A stretch of DNA of 64,000 bases from Flavobacterium crocinum (GTDB taxonomy: Bacteria; Bacteroidota; Bacteroidia; Flavobacteriales; Flavobacteriaceae): contig NZ_CP029255.1 in the NCBI RefSeq assembly GCF_003122385.1, positions 5,766,001 through 5,830,000 of the forward strand, given 5' to 3'. Below the pieces are notes generated by a model, which was not told the origin of the DNA, made no database searches, and was given only the letters and a program-made list of their open reading frames with translations. Position 1 is the stretch's first letter. Every line of letters starts with the position of its first letter. Below, one piece after another: positions 7,846-21,072 of the stretch. Both the position numbers and the translations under genes were made by a program.

Positions 7846-7945
7846 TGTCATTCCGACGAAGGAGGAATCTCCGCGACAATATTCCGCAAAGGTATTCCAA
7901 TCTTTGGCGAGTTACTTGCGGAGATTCCTCGTTCCTCGAAATGAC
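7846..7945. repeat. Palindromic interspersed element, copy B
   Basis: This is a second copy of the element at 7699-7797 in the same orientation. It starts tgtcattccgacgaaggagg and ends cctcgttcctcgaaatgaca. Differences include gcggagattcc in place of gaagattcc in the right arm, a change that improves pairing with the left arm (ggaatctccgc). Confidence 0.8.
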
Positions 7946-7989
7946 ATACTAGATTTTTAACGGTTTGTCTTCAATTAATAATCCAAAAA

Positions 7990-9137: not shown

Positions 9138-11369
9138 TTAAAGTACTAATAATCCAAACTCCCGTAAAGTATTTACAGGTTTTGAATACCAAAATAATTC
9201 AAAATCTTCTAAAGAGTCTTGCGCTTCAAAATCATTTTTTACTTCCTGAAAAGTAAAGTTTTTAGCATTTGAAATCGAAATTTTAGAAAGAATCGAAATT
9301 AGCCATTCTCCTTCTGCTTTACTGGTCTGAACATCGAAACTTTCTTTTTTATCATGAAAAGTAAGCGACATCATTTCCCAACTTCTTCCTTTTTTTGATT
9401 TTGTGAAAATTTCTGCAGAAGGTTTTCCGCCAAGCCAGACTACTTTTGCATTTGGTTTTGTATTGAAATCGTTTTGTTCTTCTAAAGCATTAAAGATAAA
9501 ATCAGGATGAATTTTGGTTTTCGGAATTTTAAAATCGAACCATTCCTGCAATTCATAATCGAAACAGATTCCGTGCATGAAATTAAAAAGTGATTTTTTT
9601 AAACCAAAGCTAAATTTATCATGATTGATTCCTGTTGCATCGGTATATTCAATGTCATTATTGGCAAAGGCTCCAATAGCTTCTGTTTTCTTAGTTACAC
9701 CAAATTGTTCCGGATACAATCCAACCGGACTATGTGCAGTCAAAGCAAACTGATGCCAGAATCCAGACTGTAAAACTCCAGCTTCAAACAACTGACGAAC
9801 CATTTCCAGACTATCAACCGTTTCCTGAATGGTTTGCGTAGGATATCCGTACATTAAATAGGCATGAACCATGATTCCGGCTTCGGTGAAATTTCGGGTC
9901 ACTTTTGCGACTTGTTCTACCGTAACTCCTTTATCAATTAATTTCAACAATCGATCTGAAGCTACTTCTAAACCGCCTGAAACGGCAATACAGCCAGAAG
10001 CTTTTAATAACAAACATAAATCTTTAGAAAAACTTTTTTCGAAGCGAATATTTGTCCACCAGGTTACAGCCAGTTTTCTTTTTAGAATTTCTAGCGCCAG
10101 AGCACGCATTAAAGCCGGTGGAGCCGCTTCGTCAACAAAATGGAATCCGTTTTGACCTGTTTTTTCAATTAATTCTTCTATTCGATCGCAAAGCAGACTT
10201 GCCACAACGGGTTCGTAAACTTTTATATAATCTAAAGAAATATCACAAAAAGTACATTTTCCCCAATAACAACCGTGTGCCATAGTGAGTTTGTTCCAAC
10301 GACCATCGCTCCACATTCTGTGCATTGGATTTACAATTTCTATAACCGAAATATATTTATCCAAAGGTAAATCTGAGTAATCCGGAGTACCTACATAAGC
10401 TTGTTTATAATCGTGTTTTAAGGAATTATTTTTATAAACTACTTCTCCATTTTCCAACAGAAAAGTTCTTTTATAAGATTTGTAATCTGTATTTTCTAAA
10501 TTGGCTATTAATTCCTCGATTGGAACTTCGCCATCGTCTAAAGTAATAAAATCAAAAAACTCAAAAACGCGTTTGTCCGAAAGCGAACGTAATTCTGTAT
10601 TCGGGAAACCGCCACCCATTGAAATCTTAATTTCGGGATGATTTTGTTTTACCCATTGCGCAGAACGAAATGCACTATATAAATTTCCTGGAAACGGAAC
10701 AGAAATTAAAAACAAAGTTGGTTTTACAGTTTCAATTTTTGCTTTTAAAAGTGAAATTAAAATCGAATCGATATAAGTTGGTTCTTGTTGAAGTGCTTGA
10801 TATAACTCATCAAAAGAATTAGCGCTTCGACCTAAACGTTCTGCATAACGGCTGAAACCAAAATTCTCATCAACACATTCTACAATAAAATCTGAAATAT
10901 CTTCGAGATATAAAGTTGCCAAATGTTTGGCTTTATCCTGAGTTCCCATTGTTCCAAAAGCCCAATCCAATTCTTCTAACTGTGCAAAACGAGAAGCTTC
11001 CGGAAGAAAATCTTCCTGACAAATCTGGAGAGCCAAAGTTGGATTTTTCCCCTGAAGAAATTGAATTACAGAATCAATTGTTTTAATATATTCGTCCTGT
11101 AAAGCAAAAATACGTTTAGAATTATCCGAGATATCGTTTCCAACAACTTCAAACCTGAAACCTGAAACCTGAAACAAATTTTGAAGCCCATTCTTCGAAA
11201 ACAATTCCAAAATGACATCAATACCCAAATCGGCCTGAACCGATTCGATATTTTTGGTATTCAGAAAACCTTTTATATACGCCGTTGCCGGATACGGTGT
11301 ATTCAGTTGGGTAAATGGCGGTGTAATTACAAAAAGTTTCGTTTTCAAAAGAGAATTATTTTTTTGCAA
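9138..11369 (-). CDS. B12-binding radical SAM protein
   Basis: This is a large (743-residue) radical SAM enzyme with an N-terminal cobalamin-binding-like region (FVITPPFTQLNTPYPA at 13-28, MGGGFPNTEL near 251-260). The radical SAM core holds the iron-sulfur cysteines Cys367, Cys372 and Cys375 (HGCYWGKCTFCD), a CX4CX2C spacing instead of the classic CX3CX2C. Later motifs include SGGLEVASDRLL and MVHAYLMYGYPTQT. The reaction is unknown; relatives methylate or rearrange substrates. The start is uncertain: TTG at 11369 or TTG at 11348, with no ATG nearby. Residues about 67-75 are encoded by a tandem 8-nt repeat (11151-11175) that looks like inserted intergenic sequence. Confidence 0.85.
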   Translation of the reverse strand: MQKNNSLLKTKLFVITPPFTQLNTPYPATAYIKGFLNTKNIESVQADLGIDVILELFSKNGLQNLFQVSGFRFEVVGNDISDNSKRIFALQDEYIKTIDSVIQFLQGKNPTLALQICQEDFLPEASRFAQLEELDWAFGTMGTQDKAKHLATLYLEDISDFIVECVDENFGFSRYAERLGRSANSFDELYQALQQEPTYIDSILISLLKAKIETVKPTLFLISVPFPGNLYSAFRSAQWVKQNHPEIKISMGGGFPNTELRSLSDKRVFEFFDFITLDDGEVPIEELIANLENTDYKSYKRTFLLENGEVVYKNNSLKHDYKQAYVGTPDYSDLPLDKYISVIEIVNPMHRMWSDGRWNKLTMAHGCYWGKCTFCDISLDYIKVYEPVVASLLCDRIEELIEKTGQNGFHFVDEAAPPALMRALALEILKRKLAVTWWTNIRFEKSFSKDLCLLLKASGCIAVSGGLEVASDRLLKLIDKGVTVEQVAKVTRNFTEAGIMVHAYLMYGYPTQTIQETVDSLEMVRQLFEAGVLQSGFWHQFALTAHSPVGLYPEQFGVTKKTEAIGAFANNDIEYTDATGINHDKFSFGLKKSLFNFMHGICFDYELQEWFDFKIPKTKIHPDFIFNALEEQNDFNTKPNAKVVWLGGKPSAEIFTKSKKGRSWEMMSLTFHDKKESFDVQTSKAEGEWLISILSKISISNAKNFTFQEVKNDFEAQDSLEDFELFWYSKPVNTLREFGLLVL

Positions 11370-11412
11370 AAATACGGGTTATTGGGGACTTTTTCGCATT
11401 TCATTTTTTGAT

Positions 11413-11441
11413 TTGAAATTGTAAACATTTAATTACATTTG
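11413..11441 (+). promoter_or_regulatory. Bacteroidota-type promoter of the adhesin gene
   Basis: A TTG at 11413-11415 and a perfect TAnnTTTG box (tacatttg, 11434-11441) are 18 bases apart, matching the known Flavobacterium -33/-7 arrangement. The -7 box lies 20 bases before the ATG at 11462, so the leader is very short. Confidence 0.6.
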
Positions 11442-11461
11442 TCACTATACAAAACAACTCT

Positions 11462-14400
11462 ATGAAGCACAAATTACTTTTTATTTTTTTGTTTTTTTCA
11501 ATATTTTGCTATTCTCAGGAAAATTGTAATAACGGAGTTGATGATGATGGCGACGGCAAAATAGACTTAAATGATGAAGATTGTATTTGTAATAATACTA
11601 CTTCCATTTTACAAAATCATTCTTTTGAAGAAAAAACAAATTGCCCTCAAGGTTTTGATGACATTCCAACTACTACTTATTGGACAAAAGGAACGATCCC
11701 ATCCCCTGATTATTTAAATAAAGACTGCTATCTTCTTAATACCATTTATAACAAGAATCTTCAAAATTTTCCCGATGGTAAAGGAATTTTCAGAGCAGTA
11801 TACAAAAACAATAAAAAAGAATATATTGCTACAAAATTATCAAGTCCATTAAGTACCGGCATAAAATATCAGTTAACGCTGAATATTGCTACATTGATGA
11901 GTATCGAAACAAATAACCTAAGTAAACGTTTTGATTTTAATTTCTTAGAGCCTACTTATGTAACACTTTACGGTTGTACCAATAAAGATAATTTACCATT
12001 ATATACTACCTCAGATCCAAATTCATTTGACTCATCTTGGATTGAAATTGGAAAAGTTTTATACCAACCTCAGACTACCTGGGGAGAAATAACAATTAAT
12101 TTTACTACAAACATTGCTATTAACGCAATAATGTTAGGACCAGAAAAGGTATTACCTCCATCCTTTAACACGGATTATGAACCTTCTTTTTTGTATGATA
12201 ATCTAAGATTAAATACTGCTGAAAATTTTGGTGTTACTATTGTTCAAAGTGGCAGTTTCTGCAATAATGATTTAATATTGACTGCTAACCTGAATAAAAC
12301 CATGAATCCAGCAACAACTTTTCAATGGTATAAAAATGGAATAGCAATAATTGGAGCAACGAATAAAACTTATTCAATTCCTTCAATTAAAACAAATTTA
12401 GGAGAATATGTCGTAAAAGTTACAGATCAAAATGATTGCTTTATAAGTCCAAAATTAACGATAAACAATTCAATTCTTAATCCTTCTGTCACAGTAGTTC
12501 AGCCTACTTGTCAAGATATAAACGGTTACATCAAAGTTAACGAACCTGGAATAGAATACAGTTTTGATAAAGGTTTGCCTTTTCTTTCAGATGACAATTA
12601 TGTTACAAAAGATTTAGTATGGAAAACAGATCCCAACTTTGCTACAAAAGAATATGGTAAATATTATGTTCAGACAAGAACCGCTTCGGGTTGTATTTCT
12701 ACACCTACAATTGTAACAATTAATCCCCCAATATTACTAGACCGTCCTACATTTTCGATTATTCAACCAACTTGCAGTTCTGGTGGAACTATTACTATCA
12801 CAACTCCGGGATCACAATTTAGTTTTGATGATGGTTTGACTTGGGAAAACAGTGCTGTCAAAGCAAATTTACCTACTGGAACTTATTTAATTAAAATAAA
12901 AAACAGTAGCGGATGTGAATCCTATTCTCAAAGCGTCTTGCTTTTTACATCATACATTAATTCTCCTAACTATACTTTAAGTCAACCTACCTGCAATCAG
13001 GGCGGCAGTATTACTATTACCAGCCCCGCATCTGAATACAGTTTTGATAACGGAGAAACATGGACAACTAATTCAACAGCAACTAATCTGCCTTCCGGCT
13101 ATTACAATGTTAGAATTAAAGATGAATTTGGATGTGTGTCGAAACCTTATTTTAATCAAATTTATTTAAATAAATTTTCTAAACCATATCCGGAAGCCAA
13201 AGTTACTCAACCAAATACTTGTAGCAATACCGGAAGTATTATCTTTTCAAAGCTTTCATCTAAATATAGTATTGACAACGGGCAAACATGGCAGGAAACA
13301 CCTGCTTTTAATAATTTACGACCTGGTAATTATGTACTAAAAACTCAAAATGAACTAGGTTGCGAATCCGAAGTTTTTCAGGTTAAAATAAATTTTTATT
13401 TACCTAAACCAACTTATACCACTATAAATCCCGGATGTACGACAAATGGCAGTATTACTATTACCAGCCCGGCATCTGAATATAGTTTTGATAATGGAGA
13501 AACATGGACAACAAATCCAACGGCAGCTAATTTACCTGCGGGTTCTTATAATATTAGAATTAAAAATGAATTAGGCTGTGAATCTGATCTTGTATATGCC
13601 TATTTACCTGCTTTCTATCTTGATGCACCCACATTCAAAATAATAAATCCGAATTGTGAAACGGAATCCAAATGGAGTATATCAATTACAACCCCGGCAT
13701 CTGAATATAGTTTTGATGGTGGTTTTAGTTGGAGTACAAACTCAAGCATTTCTAATTTAGATTATGGAACTTACTTCCTGAAAATAAAAAATGCTTTAGG
13801 CTGTGAATCAAGTTATGCAATTGCCACTATAAATAATGCCTATTATTTGGGACGTCCTGAATTTTCAGTTTCACAACCTACATGTACTACCCCTGGACGT
13901 GTTACCATAACCACTCCTGCGGCATTTTATAGTTTTGATGATGGAGCAACATGGAGTACAGATCCAAATCTTACTAAATATCCTCATGGTAACGTAAGTG
14001 GTTATCTTAGGATTAAAAATAAATCAGGCTGTGTAAGTGAACCTAATTGGTTTAGTCTTAACCATAATTATCTTAATCCTCCAACTTATACAATAGTGCA
14101 ACCAACGATTTGTGACAGTAATGCTACCGGAAGTATTACTATTACGACAGCAGCCGACTTATATAGCTTTGATGGAGGTTTAAGCTGGAGTACTAACCGT
14201 ACAGCTTCAAATCTTCCCATAGGATTTAAATATCAATTAAAAATAAAAAATAAAGAAGGATGTGAATCAGGAAACCTTGTAGTTGAATTCACACCTCTTA
14301 AAATAAAGGAGGTCGATTACAAAGCCACTTATCCTAGCTGCGGTAAAGGAGGTTCTATTACAATTACTACACCGGCACCATTTTACAGTTTTGATGGTGG

Positions 14401-16759
14401 TGAAACTTGGGGCACAAATCCAACTGCTTCAAATTTACCACTTGGTTTTTATTATCCTAAAATAAAAAATGAAGCCGGATGTGTCTCACAAACAAATTAT
14501 TCTGTGAATTTCACTGAAGAATATTTATCTAATTTTAATATTCAGGTAACTCAACCTACTTGTGAATCAAAGAATAAAGGGAGTATTACAATAGATCCAA
14601 TATTTGATCAATATAGCTTTGATGACGGTAGAACCTGGAGTCAATACAACTCTGCCATAAATCTATCTCCTGGTAATTATTACATAGTAGTTAAAAACAA
14701 TTTAGGCTGTCAGTCCTGGTGGAGAACTGTAACACTTTATGATTTTTATCTACCCAGACCAAATTATACCGCAACTCCTCCTGTATGTGGAACTGGAGGA
14801 AGTATTACAATAACTACTCCGGCTGCCTTATACAGTTTTGATGATGGAATAAGTTGGACAACTAACCCAACAGCTGTAAATTTAGATGAAGGGTATTACG
14901 GAATAAAGATAAAAAATGAGTTAGGGTGTGAATCCTATCCTCAAAATATTTATGTTCCAAAATTTTACCTTAATACGCCATCATACTCAATAATACAACC
15001 TAATTGCGAATCTTTAGGCAGTATAACTTTCACTACAGTTGCTTCAGAATATAGTATAGACAATGGTTTAACCTGGCAAGCTAACGCTACTTTTCCTAAT
15101 TTAACTGCTGATAATTATTATTTAAAAATAAAAAACGAATTAGGATGTGAATCGAGTCCAAAATACATTTCTTTATATAATTCGAATCCATCACCTCAAC
15201 AGCCAAATGTTAATGCTCAACAGCCAAGTAGTTGTACAGCTGCTAAAGGGACTATTACAGTGTCAACAAATGCTTATCAATACAGTTTTGATAATGGACT
15301 TACCTGGACTACAAATTCTAAGGCAGTTAATTTAGATCCTGGCACCTATTTTGTTAAAATCAAAAACAGCAGTACAGGCTGTCCTTCACTTGCAACAAAA
15401 GCAATTATCAACACACCGTTAGATGCCATAGTAGCTCCAAATTATACAGTTTCTCATCCTGTAAGCTGTAACAATCCCTTTGGGACAATTACTATTACAA
15501 CCATAGCCTCAAAGTATAGTTTTGACAATGGATTAACATGGAAAACAAATTCAGATTCTGGAAATTTAGCTATAGGGAATTATATGATTAAGATTCAAAA
15601 TGCTGCCGGATGTGAATCTGAAGCTGTTTCGATTAGCATAAATGCACCTACAGATTACCCAACTACCCCAACAAACAATATAACCCAACCTAATTGTAAT
15701 AATAGTCAAGGAAAAATAACCATTCTTACTACAGCATCCGAATATAGTTTTGATAACGGTTTAAACTGGTCTAATAATGCAACATCGACATTTTTAAATC
15801 CAGGTGAATATTATTTAAAAATTAAAAATGCCAATGGATGTGTTTCTGAACCAGTAAAAGCCACTATAATAGCTTTTGTGAATTCAATACCATTGCCTGA
15901 AAATGCAAATCCTAAAATCTTCTGCATTCAGGAAAATGCTACTTTAGATAATATTCAAATGACCGGAAACAACATAAAATGGTATAACGCTCAAACTGGC
16001 GGAACACCTTTGGTCAATACAACATTACTCCAAAATAATGGAGCTTATTTTGCATCACAAACAATAGATGGGTGTGAGAGTTTAAGAGTTCCTATATCCG
16101 TTACGATTCAGAATACATTAACACCAACCGGAAATGCCAATCAGCAATTTTGTACCGGACAAAACCCAACAATTACAAATCTAGAAATAACTGGTACTTC
16201 AATAAAATGGTACGATGCACTAACCAATGGAAATTTATTAGCTGAAACAACTACTCTAATTGATGGAAAGACCTACTATGCATCACAAACAGAAAACAGT
16301 TGCGAAAGTCCAAGATTTGGAGTTAAAGTTTCTATTGTAAATACTCCGTCTGCCCCATCAGGAAATGGAACTCAGGAATTTTGTAAAAATGAAAACCCAA
16401 CGTTGGAAGACATTCAAATGACTGAACAAAATTTAAAATGGTACGATACCAATTTTTCAGCAGCTCCTCTGCCTAATACAACTTTATTAGAAAATGACCG
16501 AACATATTATGCTTCACAAACAATTGGATGTGAAAGCGACAGAACTCCAATTTTGGTAAAAGTCTATAATACACCTTTACCAACTGGAAATAACAATCAA
16601 CAATTTTGTATTAATGAAATTGCCACTTTAGAAAGTTTAAACATCGCTGGAACCGATCTTAAATGGTATGATGCTAAAACCAGCGGAAATATTTTACCGG
16701 AAACCACTTTACTGCAAACCACAGCTTATTATGTCACACAGACTTTAAACGGCTGCTAA
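11462..16759 (+). CDS. Giant repeat adhesin, truncated by an in-frame stop
   Basis: This is a secreted 1765-residue surface protein, probably an adhesin. A signal peptide (about 1-19) leads to an acidic, calcium-loop-like stretch (GVDDDGDGKIDLNDEDC, 25-41). A jelly-roll-like region and one Ig-like unit follow. Then come about 15 repeats of some 75 residues, each with a PxC start, the core YSFDNGxTW and an ending KNxxGCES, reminiscent of SprB-type repeats. The tail has Ig-like repeats of the pattern FCxxxNPTxxxxxxxxxxxKWY. The fourth of these ends TLNGC followed by TAA, where every sister repeat has GCE or SCE, so a GAA codon has become a stop. The sorting domain that type IX secretion needs lies downstream in the same frame. 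No SprF-like partner gene is adjacent. Confidence 0.9.
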   Translation: MKHKLLFIFLFFSIFCYSQENCNNGVDDDGDGKIDLNDEDCICNNTTSILQNHSFEEKTNCPQGFDDIPTTTYWTKGTIPSPDYLNKDCYLLNTIYNKNLQNFPDGKGIFRAVYKNNKKEYIATKLSSPLSTGIKYQLTLNIATLMSIETNNLSKRFDFNFLEPTYVTLYGCTNKDNLPLYTTSDPNSFDSSWIEIGKVLYQPQTTWGEITINFTTNIAINAIMLGPEKVLPPSFNTDYEPSFLYDNLRLNTAENFGVTIVQSGSFCNNDLILTANLNKTMNPATTFQWYKNGIAIIGATNKTYSIPSIKTNLGEYVVKVTDQNDCFISPKLTINNSILNPSVTVVQPTCQDINGYIKVNEPGIEYSFDKGLPFLSDDNYVTKDLVWKTDPNFATKEYGKYYVQTRTASGCISTPTIVTINPPILLDRPTFSIIQPTCSSGGTITITTPGSQFSFDDGLTWENSAVKANLPTGTYLIKIKNSSGCESYSQSVLLFTSYINSPNYTLSQPTCNQGGSITITSPASEYSFDNGETWTTNSTATNLPSGYYNVRIKDEFGCVSKPYFNQIYLNKFSKPYPEAKVTQPNTCSNTGSIIFSKLSSKYSIDNGQTWQETPAFNNLRPGNYVLKTQNELGCESEVFQVKINFYLPKPTYTTINPGCTTNGSITITSPASEYSFDNGETWTTNPTAANLPAGSYNIRIKNELGCESDLVYAYLPAFYLDAPTFKIINPNCETESKWSISITTPASEYSFDGGFSWSTNSSISNLDYGTYFLKIKNALGCESSYAIATINNAYYLGRPEFSVSQPTCTTPGRVTITTPAAFYSFDDGATWSTDPNLTKYPHGNVSGYLRIKNKSGCVSEPNWFSLNHNYLNPPTYTIVQPTICDSNATGSITITTAADLYSFDGGLSWSTNRTASNLPIGFKYQLKIKNKEGCESGNLVVEFTPLKIKEVDYKATYPSCGKGGSITITTPAPFYSFDGGETWGTNPTASNLPLGFYYPKIKNEAGCVSQTNYSVNFTEEYLSNFNIQVTQPTCESKNKGSITIDPIFDQYSFDDGRTWSQYNSAINLSPGNYYIVVKNNLGCQSWWRTVTLYDFYLPRPNYTATPPVCGTGGSITITTPAALYSFDDGISWTTNPTAVNLDEGYYGIKIKNELGCESYPQNIYVPKFYLNTPSYSIIQPNCESLGSITFTTVASEYSIDNGLTWQANATFPNLTADNYYLKIKNELGCESSPKYISLYNSNPSPQQPNVNAQQPSSCTAAKGTITVSTNAYQYSFDNGLTWTTNSKAVNLDPGTYFVKIKNSSTGCPSLATKAIINTPLDAIVAPNYTVSHPVSCNNPFGTITITTIASKYSFDNGLTWKTNSDSGNLAIGNYMIKIQNAAGCESEAVSISINAPTDYPTTPTNNITQPNCNNSQGKITILTTASEYSFDNGLNWSNNATSTFLNPGEYYLKIKNANGCVSEPVKATIIAFVNSIPLPENANPKIFCIQENATLDNIQMTGNNIKWYNAQTGGTPLVNTTLLQNNGAYFASQTIDGCESLRVPISVTIQNTLTPTGNANQQFCTGQNPTITNLEITGTSIKWYDALTNGNLLAETTTLIDGKTYYASQTENSCESPRFGVKVSIVNTPSAPSGNGTQEFCKNENPTLEDIQMTEQNLKWYDTNFSAAPLPNTTLLENDRTYYASQTIGCESDRTPILVKVYNTPLPTGNNNQQFCINEIATLESLNIAGTDLKWYDAKTSGNILPETTLLQTTAYYVTQTLNGC

Positions 16760-17314
16760 AGTAAAAGATTTGCTTTAAGTGTTAAAATCCAGGATACTCA
16801 AATCCCTATTGCAGATTCACCACAAGTTTTCTGCATTCAGAAAAATGCAAAAATTAGTGATATTGGAGTTTTGGGACAGAATATCAAATGGTATGAAAAC
16901 ATTTCTTCAACTATTTCCATTTCAGAATCAACATCTCTTGAAAATGGAATTACTTATTATGCCACTCAAACTATCAGCAATTGCGAAAGTGATAGAATTC
17001 CAGTTACTATAAATATTCAGGAAGCAACAACTGGTGATTGTATCCATTTTGTTGAAGAACTTCCTTTTCCTAAATTCTTTACTCCTAACGGTGACGGATT
17101 TAACGATCTTTGGACAATTGACTCTGCTTATTTAGCTCCAAATAGCAGAATTAAAATCTATGATCGTTACGGAAAACTAATTAAAGAATTGGCACCAAAT
17201 ACTTCCTGGAACGGAACTTATCTTGGTAATCTAGAACCTGCATCCGATTATTGGTTTTCAGCCACACGTTTTAATGGTACAGAATTTAGAGGCCATTTTA
17301 GTTTGAAACGATAA
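16760..17314 (+). pseudogene. Severed C-terminus of the adhesin with type B T9SS sorting domain
   Basis: Reading continues in the same frame after the TAA at 16757-16759: SKRFALSVKIQD completes the broken repeat, a fifth Ig-like repeat follows (FCIQKNAKISD... IKWYENISS), then a gliding-motility type C-terminal domain (FFTPNGDGFNDLW, KIYDRYGKLIKEL, FRGHFSLKR). This domain directs proteins through type IX secretion. The fragment has no signal peptide, and the only nearby initiation codon is a TTG at 16871, so it is unlikely to be made or exported on its own. With one codon restored the full product would be about 1950 residues. A base-calling error remains possible. Confidence 0.85.
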
Positions 17315-17322
17315 CATAAAAG

Positions 17323-17358
17323 AAAAGTCCGCGTCTTAATAAAGATTGCGGACTTTTT
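17323..17358. terminator. Bidirectional terminator
   Basis: A perfect 10-bp stem pairs 17323-17332 (aaaagtccgc) with 17348-17357 (gcggactttt), with a T-rich run to the right and an A-rich run to the left. It lies between the convergent adhesin and alpha/beta-hydrolase genes and can serve both. Confidence 0.85.
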
Positions 17359-17379
17359 ATTAAAATTTCAAGCCTAATT

Positions 17380-18753
17380 TTATTTCGTTTGTACTAAAAG
17401 CCAGTTCGATATTTCTTCTAATGCAATTGGAGAAAAGGTTTGTTCTATTGTTTCATATTCACTTGGAGAACCTGTTTGACATTCTTGAAATAAATGATTC
17501 AAATCAGGCAAAATTTTAGCTGTAACGTTTTTATTTCCTGCTTTCACCAAAGTCTTTTTTATAATTTCCAAATTAGCTTCGGCCGCAACTTGTAAATCTT
17601 TGTTTCCATTTAACGCCAAGACTGGACATTTTACTTTTTCTAGATAAGTAGCAGGATTAATCTTTAAAAAATCGTAACCCCAATTATCTGTAACAAAGGC
17701 TGTATATTGTTTAGTTGTATCAACATTTTCAGCACCTAACTTAGATTCAAAATAAGTTTCAATGCTTTTTTTAAATTTCTCATCATTTACAGAAGAAGCG
17801 ATAACTAAGTCGTAAGCACCTTTTAAAATCTCAAAATCTTTTCGAATTTCCTTTTCAGAAACACCACTTTGTCTTTGTAAATCTTCATTTTGCCTTAACA
17901 GTAATTTATCACCGCGAAGTCCCGGTCCGGCTAATAGTAGAATAAAAGCCACATCTTTAGAGTCTGCAGCAATCATTGGTGCGATTAAACCACCTTCGCT
18001 ATGACCAATTAAACCAATTTTCTTTTTATTTATTTCATTTCTAGTTTTTAAATAAGCAACTCCAGCTCGAATATCATTAACAAAATCTAAGGTAATAGCA
18101 TCTTTAAATTTACCAGTAGATTCACCAAAACCACGATCATCCATTCGTAATACTGCGAATCCTTTTTTTACTAAATAATCAGACAATACTAGAAAAGATT
18201 TATGACCAAGTATTTCCTCATCTCTATTTTGAGCCCCACTTCCCGTAATTAAAATGACTGCAGGAAAACTGCCTTCTTTTTTAGGAAGAGATAAAGTTCC
18301 AGCCAACGTAATTTTGTCTTTTTTATTTTCAACCTTTACCTCTTCAGTATAATACGAAAATGGTGTCTGTGGCTCTTGAGGTCTTGCGTGAACTTCCTTA
18401 TTAACAATTTCTCTCGAAAAATTCAATTCAAAAGATTGTCCATTCTGTGTAAGCTTACCTCTGATAGTGTTGTTACTATTTAATGTTCCTTCATAAGAGC
18501 CTTTGACAGCTTCAATTTCTAGTTTCAAAACACCATCTATAAAAGTAGTTTTTGCAACAGGAATCCCTGTCGCTTTCTGATCTGGACTATCCATCGTTGC
18601 AGTATATCCATTTTCAGTTTTTACTATATGAATAACTACTCTTAATTGAGCACCTGGGACTTTTAAAAGACCATTCCAATCTCCTAGAATTTCATTTCCA
18701 AATATTGCAGAAGAAGTCAGAACAAAAGTTAGAATAAGTATTATTTTTTTCAT
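17380..18753 (-). CDS. Exported alpha/beta hydrolase
   Basis: This serine hydrolase is probably periplasmic. Residues 1-19 are a signal peptide; about 20-115 form a beta-rich lipocalin-like domain. The alpha/beta-hydrolase domain starts near 130, with ITGSGAQNRDE (oxyanion region), the nucleophile elbow GHSEGG, the acid in LALNGNKDLQV and the His in LPDLNHLFQE. It is the last gene of an operon behind SdpR-like and SdpI-like genes (20-base gap). Substrates may be short acyl esters or peptides. The same two-domain arrangement is common in Bacteroidota; the link to the SdpI-like gene is not explained by known biology. Confidence 0.88.
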   Translation of the reverse strand: MKKIILILTFVLTSSAIFGNEILGDWNGLLKVPGAQLRVVIHIVKTENGYTATMDSPDQKATGIPVAKTTFIDGVLKLEIEAVKGSYEGTLNSNNTIRGKLTQNGQSFELNFSREIVNKEVHARPQEPQTPFSYYTEEVKVENKKDKITLAGTLSLPKKEGSFPAVILITGSGAQNRDEEILGHKSFLVLSDYLVKKGFAVLRMDDRGFGESTGKFKDAITLDFVNDIRAGVAYLKTRNEINKKKIGLIGHSEGGLIAPMIAADSKDVAFILLLAGPGLRGDKLLLRQNEDLQRQSGVSEKEIRKDFEILKGAYDLVIASSVNDEKFKKSIETYFESKLGAENVDTTKQYTAFVTDNWGYDFLKINPATYLEKVKCPVLALNGNKDLQVAAEANLEIIKKTLVKAGNKNVTAKILPDLNHLFQECQTGSPSEYETIEQTFSPIALEEISNWLLVQTK

Positions 18754-18773
18754 TTTTAGCAGAATTGGTTTGA

Positions 18774-19436
18774 TTACAGATTATTTTCTTTTTTAGTATG
18801 GCTTTTAAATTTTAAATAGGAATAAGCAATAGGAGCAATTGCAATGGCAAAAACAATTATCATAAATACTTTAGAAAAACCAGCACTTTCAAAAATCAAA
18901 CTTCCTAAAATGATAATTAGACCTGCAACAAACCAAAGTTTCCCAGCAAAAACATGTGTTGTTTTCCAAATTTCTGGATTTTCTAAAGTCCACGGTGTTC
19001 TGATTCCTATAAAATAGTTTGGTTGCATTACTTTAAAATAATTGCCTAAAATCATAAATAAAGCACCAAGCAATACAAAAACAAAACTTGGACTCGAAAT
19101 AGTTTGGCTTTTTGTGCTGTAAATAATAAACAAGGCTAAAATTGACATAAATAGAACTAAAATAAATTTGAGCTGATACAATTTCCCTCCCATTAAAGAC
19201 ATTCTCTTTTTAGGATCAATCTTTGAAATCACAGACAGGATTACATAAGTTAAAACAGGAAGCATGAAAAGCATTCCAATTAAGCTAAGTTTATTTCCCC
19301 AATTATCAATCTCTCCTTTAGAGTTCCAATGAATGGGAACGGTTTCAGGAAGCTCATTCCAGATTGTTGCTAAATAAACAAAAGGCACCAAAATAATTCC
19401 AATAATTGGAAGCTCTTTTTTAAATTCTAAATTCAT
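18774..19436 (-). CDS. SdpI-like membrane protein (DUF1648 plus SdpI domain)
   Basis: This is an integral membrane protein of 220 residues with about six hydrophobic segments. The N-terminal DUF1648 part has the marker PIHWNSKGEIDNWG; the C-terminal SdpI part has NYFIGIRTPWTLENPEIW. In Bacillus, SdpI gives immunity to the SdpC toxin and sequesters the repressor SdpR at the membrane. Here it follows the SdpR-like gene by only 3 bases, so the same signalling is possible, but no sdpC-like toxin gene is present. It could equally be an envelope-stress sensor. Function is inferred from family and order. Confidence 0.85.
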   Translation of the reverse strand: MNLEFKKELPIIGIILVPFVYLATIWNELPETVPIHWNSKGEIDNWGNKLSLIGMLFMLPVLTYVILSVISKIDPKKRMSLMGGKLYQLKFILVLFMSILALFIIYSTKSQTISSPSFVFVLLGALFMILGNYFKVMQPNYFIGIRTPWTLENPEIWKTTHVFAGKLWFVAGLIIILGSLIFESAGFSKVFMIIVFAIAIAPIAYSYLKFKSHTKKENNL

Positions 19437-19439
19437 TTT

Positions 19440-19694
19440 TTATTTTTTAAAGGTTAGTATCCATTGCAAAACATCTTCCATTATGGTGGTATTGATAGAA
19501 TATATGATGAATTGCCCTCTTTTCTCGGATGTAATTAAATCTGCACGCTTTAAAATATCCAAATGATGTGAAATGCTTGGTTTCGAAATATTAAATGCAT
19601 CAGCAATTTCGCCGGCAGACATATCTTTCTGTCTTAAAAGCTCCAAAATTTCTCTTCTGGTTGCATCATTTAATGCTTTAAAAATATCATTCAT
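19440..19694 (-). CDS. ArsR-family repressor, SdpR-like
   Basis: This small winged-helix repressor (84 residues from ATG 19694) has ALNDATRREILELL, the recognition region GEIADAFNISKPSISHHLDIL and the wing region SEKRGQFIIYSINT. It lacks the metal-binding Cys motif of ArsR/SmtB sensors, which fits the SdpR branch. An upstream TTG at 19715 was rejected because it lies within the promoter and operator. The gene heads the operon repressor / SdpI-like / hydrolase. A perfect inverted repeat over the promoter suggests it represses its own operon. Confidence 0.88.
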   Translation of the reverse strand: MNDIFKALNDATRREILELLRQKDMSAGEIADAFNISKPSISHHLDILKRADLITSEKRGQFIIYSINTTIMEDVLQWILTFKK

Positions 19695-19704
19695 TTCATT
19701 TATA

Positions 19705-19742
19705 TATTTAGACAAATATCTAAATACTTTTTAAACTAACAA
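19705..19742 (-). promoter_or_regulatory. Promoter with overlapping inverted-repeat operator of the SdpR-like operon
   Basis: The arms tatttaga (19705-19712) and tctaaata (19719-19726) are exact reverse complements around 6 bases. On the minus strand a TTG at 19742-19740 and a near-consensus -7 box gatatttg at 19720-19713 are 19 bases apart, and the box sits inside the palindrome. The ATG at 19694 is about 10 bases further on. This arrangement is what an autorepressor operator would look like. Confidence 0.65.
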
Positions 19743-19745
19743 AAA

Positions 19746-19774
19746 AAAGCAGTAATTTTTTACATTACTGCTTT
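19746..19774 (-). terminator. Rho-independent terminator of the MFS transporter gene
   Basis: A 10-bp stem pairs 19746-19755 (aaagcagtaa) with 19765-19774 (ttactgcttt), followed on the minus strand by eight T (A-run 19741-19748). It lies 20 bases after the transporter stop codon and shares its T-run with the -33 region of the next operon. Confidence 0.88.
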
Positions 19775-19794
19775 CAAATATTTTCATGAACCTG

Positions 19795-21072
19795 TTAAAA
19801 CTTATGTTCGTCTTTACTAATTACCAAAAATGAAATTAAGGATATCAGTGCTGCAATAACTAAATAAAAGCCTACATAACTCACATCATATGTCTTAGCT
19901 AGCCAAATTGCAATCATCGGCGCAAAAGCAGCTCCAAGAATTCCTGCCATATTAAATGTTAATGACGCTCCGGAATAACGAACATTGGTTGGAAATAACT
20001 CTGATAAAAAAGTTCCTAACGGACCATAAGTAAATCCCATTAAAGACATTCCGATACAAGCAAAAGTAGTAACTAAAACAATGTTTCCGGAACTTAAGAA
20101 ATAAGCAAAGAAAAATCCGAAAACAGCAATCGCTGCCGTAGCTAAAATAAGCATCTTACGGCGACCAATTTTGTCTGCCACTACAGCAGAAATTGGAATA
20201 AAAAGAGCAAAAAACAACACAGAAAACAATTGAATTAATAATCCGTCTCTTTTTACAATCCCTAAGTCTGATGTTGCCCAGCTCAGGGTAAAAACTGTCA
20301 TTAAATAAAAAACCAGGAATGTTGTAATAGCTGCAAACGTTCCAAAAATCAATTGGTTTTTATATGATTTCACTAATTCTAAAAACGGTACTTTAACTTC
20401 TTCCTGCTCTTTTTTAGAATTTTCGAAAGAAGGTGTTTCAGTAATTTTTGTTCTAATATAAAAACCAACAATTACCAGAAGTGCACTGGCAATAAATGGA
20501 ATTCTCCATCCATAATCCATAAAATCTTCATTGCTCATAGAGTCGGTTAATAACAGGAAAGTTCCTCCTGAAAGTAATAATCCGATTGGAGCTCCCAATT
20601 GTGGAAACATTCCGTACCAGGCACGTTTATTTGGTGGTGCGTTTTCGATAGCCAACAAAACAGCTCCTCCCCACTCGCCTCCTAAACCTACACCTTGTCC
20701 AAAACGGCAAAGCATCAGTAATAACGGAGCAGCAACACCAATACTGGCATAACTTGGCAAAAATCCAATTGTAACTGTCGAAATACCCATTGTTAATAAA
20801 GCAGCAACCAAAGTAAATTTACGTCCAATCTTATCTCCGTAATGTCCGAAAAATGCAGATCCTAATGGCCTGGATAAAAAGGCTATCGAAAAAGTGGCTA
20901 AAGATTCCAATGTCGCCATTGTCGAATCTGAACCAGGGAAAAATAACTGAGGAAAAACCAATACTGCGGCATTGGCATAAATATAAAAATCAAAAAATTC
21001 GATTGTCGTGCCAATAAGGCTTCCAAAAAGAACATGTTTTAAAGAGTTCTTTTGAGTTGGGTTCGTTTTCAT
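19795..21072 (-). CDS. MFS transporter, metabolite:H+ symporter family
   Basis: This is a 12-segment inner-membrane secondary transporter. The start of TM1 (IEFFDFYIYANAA), the loop 2-3 motif GHYGDKIGRK and the mid-protein loop ADKIGRRKM mark the MHS branch of the major facilitator superfamily, which includes ProP, ShiA and dicarboxylate carriers. The length of 425 residues is normal. It is a single gene with its own terminator, and its neighbours give no hint of the substrate. An organic acid or osmolyte taken up with protons is likely by family. Confidence 0.88.
   Translation of the reverse strand: MKTNPTQKNSLKHVLFGSLIGTTIEFFDFYIYANAAVLVFPQLFFPGSDSTMATLESLATFSIAFLSRPLGSAFFGHYGDKIGRKFTLVAALLTMGISTVTIGFLPSYASIGVAAPLLLMLCRFGQGVGLGGEWGGAVLLAIENAPPNKRAWYGMFPQLGAPIGLLLSGGTFLLLTDSMSNEDFMDYGWRIPFIASALLVIVGFYIRTKITETPSFENSKKEQEEVKVPFLELVKSYKNQLIFGTFAAITTFLVFYLMTVFTLSWATSDLGIVKRDGLLIQLFSVLFFALFIPISAVVADKIGRRKMLILATAAIAVFGFFFAYFLSSGNIVLVTTFACIGMSLMGFTYGPLGTFLSELFPTNVRYSGASLTFNMAGILGAAFAPMIAIWLAKTYDVSYVGFYLVIAALISLISFLVISKDEHKF

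Follow-up and report, generated by a model that had tools for sequence, protein, structure and literature searches.

At one conserved chromosomal site in Flavobacterium, the front end of a giant gene appears to be exchanged among lineages, and the C-terminal module and the neighboring genes stay. The Flavobacterium crocinum copy carries a private in-frame stop codon, best explained as a recent loss-of-function (null) allele (probability of about 0.6). We analyzed this copy in a window of 64,000 nucleotides, positions 5,766,001-5,830,000 of a one-contig genome (5.88 Mb, 99.97% complete). The gene product is predicted to be a type IX secretion system (T9SS) type B surface protein, and we call it an adhesin by resemblance.

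Head classes at a conserved site

The adhesin gene lies between a radical-SAM gene on its left (9138..11369, reverse strand, PF04055) and an MFS transporter gene on its right (19795..21072, reverse strand, PF07690), on the strand opposite to both. This arrangement was found in 78 of the 78 loci with both flanks and the tail, drawn from 86 with duplicates and the window counted. The genes that separate the tail from the MFS gene differ among loci. In the window, a hydrolase, an SdpI/DUF1648 gene and a small regulator-like open reading frame (ORF) occupy 17380-19715; the hydrolase occurs in 17/73 loci and SdpI/DUF1648 in 28/73, so this stretch is variable too.

The N-terminal ends of these proteins fall into six classes, which were defined on the first 400 residues only. 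Among 93 sequences, 88 were distinct: 42 in class A, 15 in B, 13 in C (including the window), 12 in D, 5 in E and 1 in F. Four genes cut by contig ends were omitted from this set, and the fronts of the window gene, L150 and L152 were added. Class A heads carry DUF7948 and SBBP. All six classes share a C-terminal module (15800..17311 in the window, forward strand, left edge approximate), and class representatives align to class A there over 396-554 residues with 65-71% identity. The classes are also related behind the head: the repeat regions of B and C are 50% identical over 1622 residues, and the E-F, E-B and E-D alignments span 506-627 residues. In searches of the F. crocinum genome for heads stored elsewhere, a class A query had no match (with no positive control there), a class B query matched only from residue 449 onward, in its repeat part, and the class C head had one distant paralogue. 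Two records named F. anhuiense differ in head class at this site (A in L054, D in L075).

Mapped onto a tree built from the two flanking genes, head class has no phylogenetic signal. This tree covers 73 of the 86 loci, with 16 of its 70 inner branches unresolved. Dropped from it were five duplicates, four loci without a radical-SAM match (L042, L090, L094, L096), three without an MFS match (L083, L100, L150) and one with a short MFS match (L072). L156 was removed as a duplicate of L042, although L042 has no radical-SAM match itself, and a B+A tandem locus is therefore absent from the tree. On the 65 single-copy loci, head class required 32 changes compared with 32.0 ± 1.6 when shuffled, and 1146 of 2000 shuffles did as well (1129/2000 in another run). 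Trees of two approximate alignment halves, split at guessed columns, gave 30 changes versus 32.1 (152/1000) and 33 versus 32.0 (808/1000). On the same flank tree, signal was present for the hydrolase gene (12 changes versus 15.5 shuffled, 22/2000), the DUF1648 gene (15 versus 22.6, 1/2000) and the tandem state (4 versus 7.8, 0/2000).

Tails follow flanks, not heads. Tail identity was 71.3% within head classes and 71.9% between them, and across the 64 loci used for comparison with flanks (the single-copy loci without L152) it correlated with flank DNA identity (rho = 0.67, 2016 pairs). Within classes, the correlation of head with flank was 0.53 for A, 0.67 for B, 0.23 for C and -0.02 for D; the A and B values count against head exchange. 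Heads were more alike than their flanks in 35/36 pairs of class B and 14/55 of class C, so recent transfer is well supported for B and for part of C.

We infer that recombination, rather than the sorting of old copies, made the head pattern. With no recent exchange, an old multi-head tandem array, from which different copies survived in different lineages, might also yield such a pattern, an account that we think somewhat unlikely. Tandem pairs with two head classes do exist, at 8 of the 73 flank-tree loci and at L042/L156 outside the tree, and in most class A and class D pairs the heads are less similar than the flanks (heads exceed flanks in 10/435 and 0/45 pairs, respectively). Against an old array stand the B and C heads that exceed flank identity, and also the tails, which go with flanks rather than heads, yet were clearly homogenized in only two of nine tandem pairs (L155, L156; not in L165 or L166). 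The A and D heads may stem either from older exchange or from the sorting of an old tandem array. Under recombination, the two-class tandem pairs could be an intermediate of exchange.

The window gene itself is a mosaic at this site with exchangeable front ends. Its nearest flank relatives are G361, F. phragmitis and F. quisquiliarum (89-90% DNA identity), which have heads A, A and B. By eye, its leader resembles those of G361 and F. phragmitis until shortly 5' of the start codon. Its head is class C, and identity to the F. nitrogenifigens allele (L043) is 85-94% at 11569-14768, 66-79% at 14769-15568 and 87-96% at 15569-16568. The last of these tracts runs on the forward strand through 15569..16608, with a divergent patch at 16234-16285. 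Differences from F. nitrogenifigens are densely packed from 16609 on, roughly 150 bases 5' of the stop. In each of the 12 steps of 60 bases that follow 16592, F. nitrogenifigens is no closer to the window gene than the best of the three flank relatives. Between the window gene and F. nitrogenifigens, dS rises from 0.44 on the 5' side of the stop to 1.37 on the 3' side.

The interrupted reading frame

An in-frame TAA (16757..16759, forward strand) divides the window gene. The truncated front (11462..16759, forward strand, 1765 aa, ATG start) comprises a signal-peptide-like start, the class C head, YSFD repeats and Ig_7 domains, and ends in this TAA. Its putative signal peptide, with the hydrophobic start MKHKLLFIFLFFSIFCYSQ, was assessed by eye only. 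Upstream is a promoter-like site, TTG-18 bases-TACATTTG (11413..11441, forward strand), which we take to resemble the Bacteroidota consensus; the box looks alike in several species by eye. As a sequence-only reading had claimed, the frame is open on both sides of the stop. It continues for 184 codons and a terminal stop (16760..17314, forward strand), leaving a stranded tail with one Ig_7-like domain (about 16805-17017) and a type B sorting domain (17066-17311).

Other details of that reading also held. Pfam Ig_7 matched on each side of the TAA (E = 4.4e-33 before; 4.8e-05 after, at 24.0 bits, below the cut-off of 27.3). CHU_C (1.3e-12) and TIGR04131 (1.5e-29) matched solely 3' of it, and so the stop does separate the front from its type B C-terminal domain (CTD). 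The ORF listed within the open frame downstream starts at TTG 16871, and this part has no evident signal peptide. A Glu had been noted at the matching place of the other Ig-like repeats; by eye, Cys-Glu-Ser is present in 4/4 readable ones (three before the TAA, one after), and the broken repeat reads Cys-stop-Ser. No further stop was found in either part of the gene at 11462..17314, and the lesion is the single codon that had been proposed.

The stop is private to the window. We searched 398 genus genomes, one per species, and the tail was present at E <= 1e-50 in 77 (own genome included), with no internal stop in any match listed. At the aligned site, a sense codon for an acidic residue stands in 90/90 other distinct tails. 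Four secondary matches of low identity (31-37%) carry different sense codons at this position; not being tail orthologues, they were left out of this count. The lesion is thus missing from intact orthologues, a mark by which a null allele is judged. The sequence-only reading had allowed that close relatives might have two separate genes here. We rule out such a two-gene reading of front and tail because the frame of relatives runs through this position with a sense codon; where they have second genes, these are complete tandem genes with their own tail.

The type B CTD (TIGR04131/PF13585) lies outside the 1765-aa ORF, 3' of the TAA in the frame that remains open, and intact relatives have it in-frame. 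SprA and GldM, the two T9SS components searched for, were both found in the organism without stops, and 13 other type B domains of the genome are in frames of at least 425 aa; the T9SS is thus probably in use. No PorP/SprF-like gene adjoins the adhesin gene (ten PF11751 matches lie elsewhere in the genome), which makes the export route of the intact gene putative. According to one review, a PorP/SprF protein is required for type B export, and secretion of GFP with type B signals needed more than 200 C-terminal residues (PMC10202324). SprB binds SprF via its last 368 residues, according to a second source (PMC9143113). Given these requirements, a product that ends 184 residues early should lack surface display altogether. 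The 1765-residue front would presumably still be made and moved by Sec. It would then have no signal for crossing the outer membrane and would be retained or degraded, an outcome that would be null for surface display. Outside the window, at G000:C1:2644965-2648339, lies an intact paralogue of 1136 aa. Its head is class C-like (40% identity), it ends in a type B domain of its own frame, and it could be redundant with the broken gene.

Origin of the stop

A fresh null allele was one of the options in the sequence-only reading, and it is the one that fits best: the stop is private, and dN/dS is as in relatives. For the tail, mean dN/dS between the window and nine relatives was 0.115, compared with 0.125 among the nine (range 0.08-0.16). 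For the front, it was 0.19-0.23 for the window and 0.12-0.28 for relatives among themselves. Neither front nor tail shows relaxed selection by this comparison with relatives, as expected if the lesion is young; values like those of relatives mean that it is young, or an error. Note that such intact-looking purifying selection is equally expected of an intact gene.

Accordingly, the stop may be a wrong base in the assembly, with the gene intact in the organism, which we consider unlikely. The lesion is single, and front and tail both look as though they are under selection. Furthermore, a conserved gene of the same genome also has a lone nonsense codon. This gene (G000:C1:5612118-5612847, outside the window), which we take to be YggS-like, has a single in-frame stop, and its remainder is 93% identical to G361. 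Counting against an error are the assembly, which is one contig and 99.97% complete, and a background comparison. We compared 511 ORFs of G361, the genome with the nearest tail in the genus search, with the window's own genome (G000) in two blocks of about 400 kb. Across 175,397 codons there were 0 frameshift-like breaks and 1 credible nonsense codon: of 11 internal stops listed, 1 was credible (the YggS-like gene), 8 lay before a later Met (start choice) and 2 were in a 23S rRNA gene. A looser first pass listed 3 breaks/256, 2 of them weak small ORFs, and the reverse comparison, of 510 ORFs from G000 against G361, gave 12 stops and 3 frameshift-like entries as raw rows.

A regulatory stop, in an on/off or readthrough gene, had also been suggested and is very improbable: the frame does stay open past the TAA and an apparent frameshift in the G350 copy means that off-alleles recur, but the TAA is not conserved (sense in 90/90 other distinct tails), the remaining type B genes of the genome have no such stop, and neither a tandem repeat nor an invertible segment able to switch it was found, with none of the 13 imperfect inverted pairs in 11000-19800 bracketing the TAA as a switch would.

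The apparent G350 frameshift is in the head of L152 (about 7938-7970, reverse strand, in a region of a one-contig record). Two short frames were rejected as further truncations: L150 (G158) is interrupted by runs of N, and L070 has a TTG start. Other short frames among the tail matches include some at contig ends (G031, G101, G107) and one at a second place (G056).

Known systems and biological meaning

Proteins in which one end is constant and the other is exchanged, such as polymorphic toxins, are already known. There, as here, one end and the neighbors are constant and the opposite end is exchanged between lineages. However, it is the N-terminal end that varies at the Flavobacterium site, with a constant C-terminal export module, and no toxin or immunity gene was identified. 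The end of GhpA, the grappling hook protein of Aureispira (PDB 9flp), weakly matches the final 85 residues here (E = 0.0048), but the match is confined to the sorting domain and offers no evidence for hooks. Intact relatives of the window gene share giant size, repeats and a type B CTD with SprB of F. johnsoniae, a type B gliding adhesin exported with SprF (PMC9143113, PMC10202324). Unlike SprB, the window gene has no adjoining PorP/SprF gene and its CTD is cut off, and the gene at this site comes with six front-end classes; any role in gliding would be putative.

In a limited search, without supplements or subscription papers, we found no description of this locus. Nor did that search show an account of a single site that combines a constant type B export module with front ends open to exchange. 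We tentatively suggest, at less than even odds, that the site is a diversity locus for the whole genus. Its promoter region and T9SS export module would be fixed, front ends with different binding specificities would be recombined between species, and pressure from phages, predators, hosts or neighbors would favor rare types. Broken alleles, such as those of the window and G350, would then represent turnover.

Taken alone, the stop is nothing unusual, either a recent nonsense codon of an ordinary kind or a wrong base. The site, by comparison, is a natural experiment, in which the front ends of close relatives differ and the export tail and its place are constant. The binding targets of the heads, the forces behind their exchange and the length of tail required for type B export could all be tested in a laboratory Flavobacterium.
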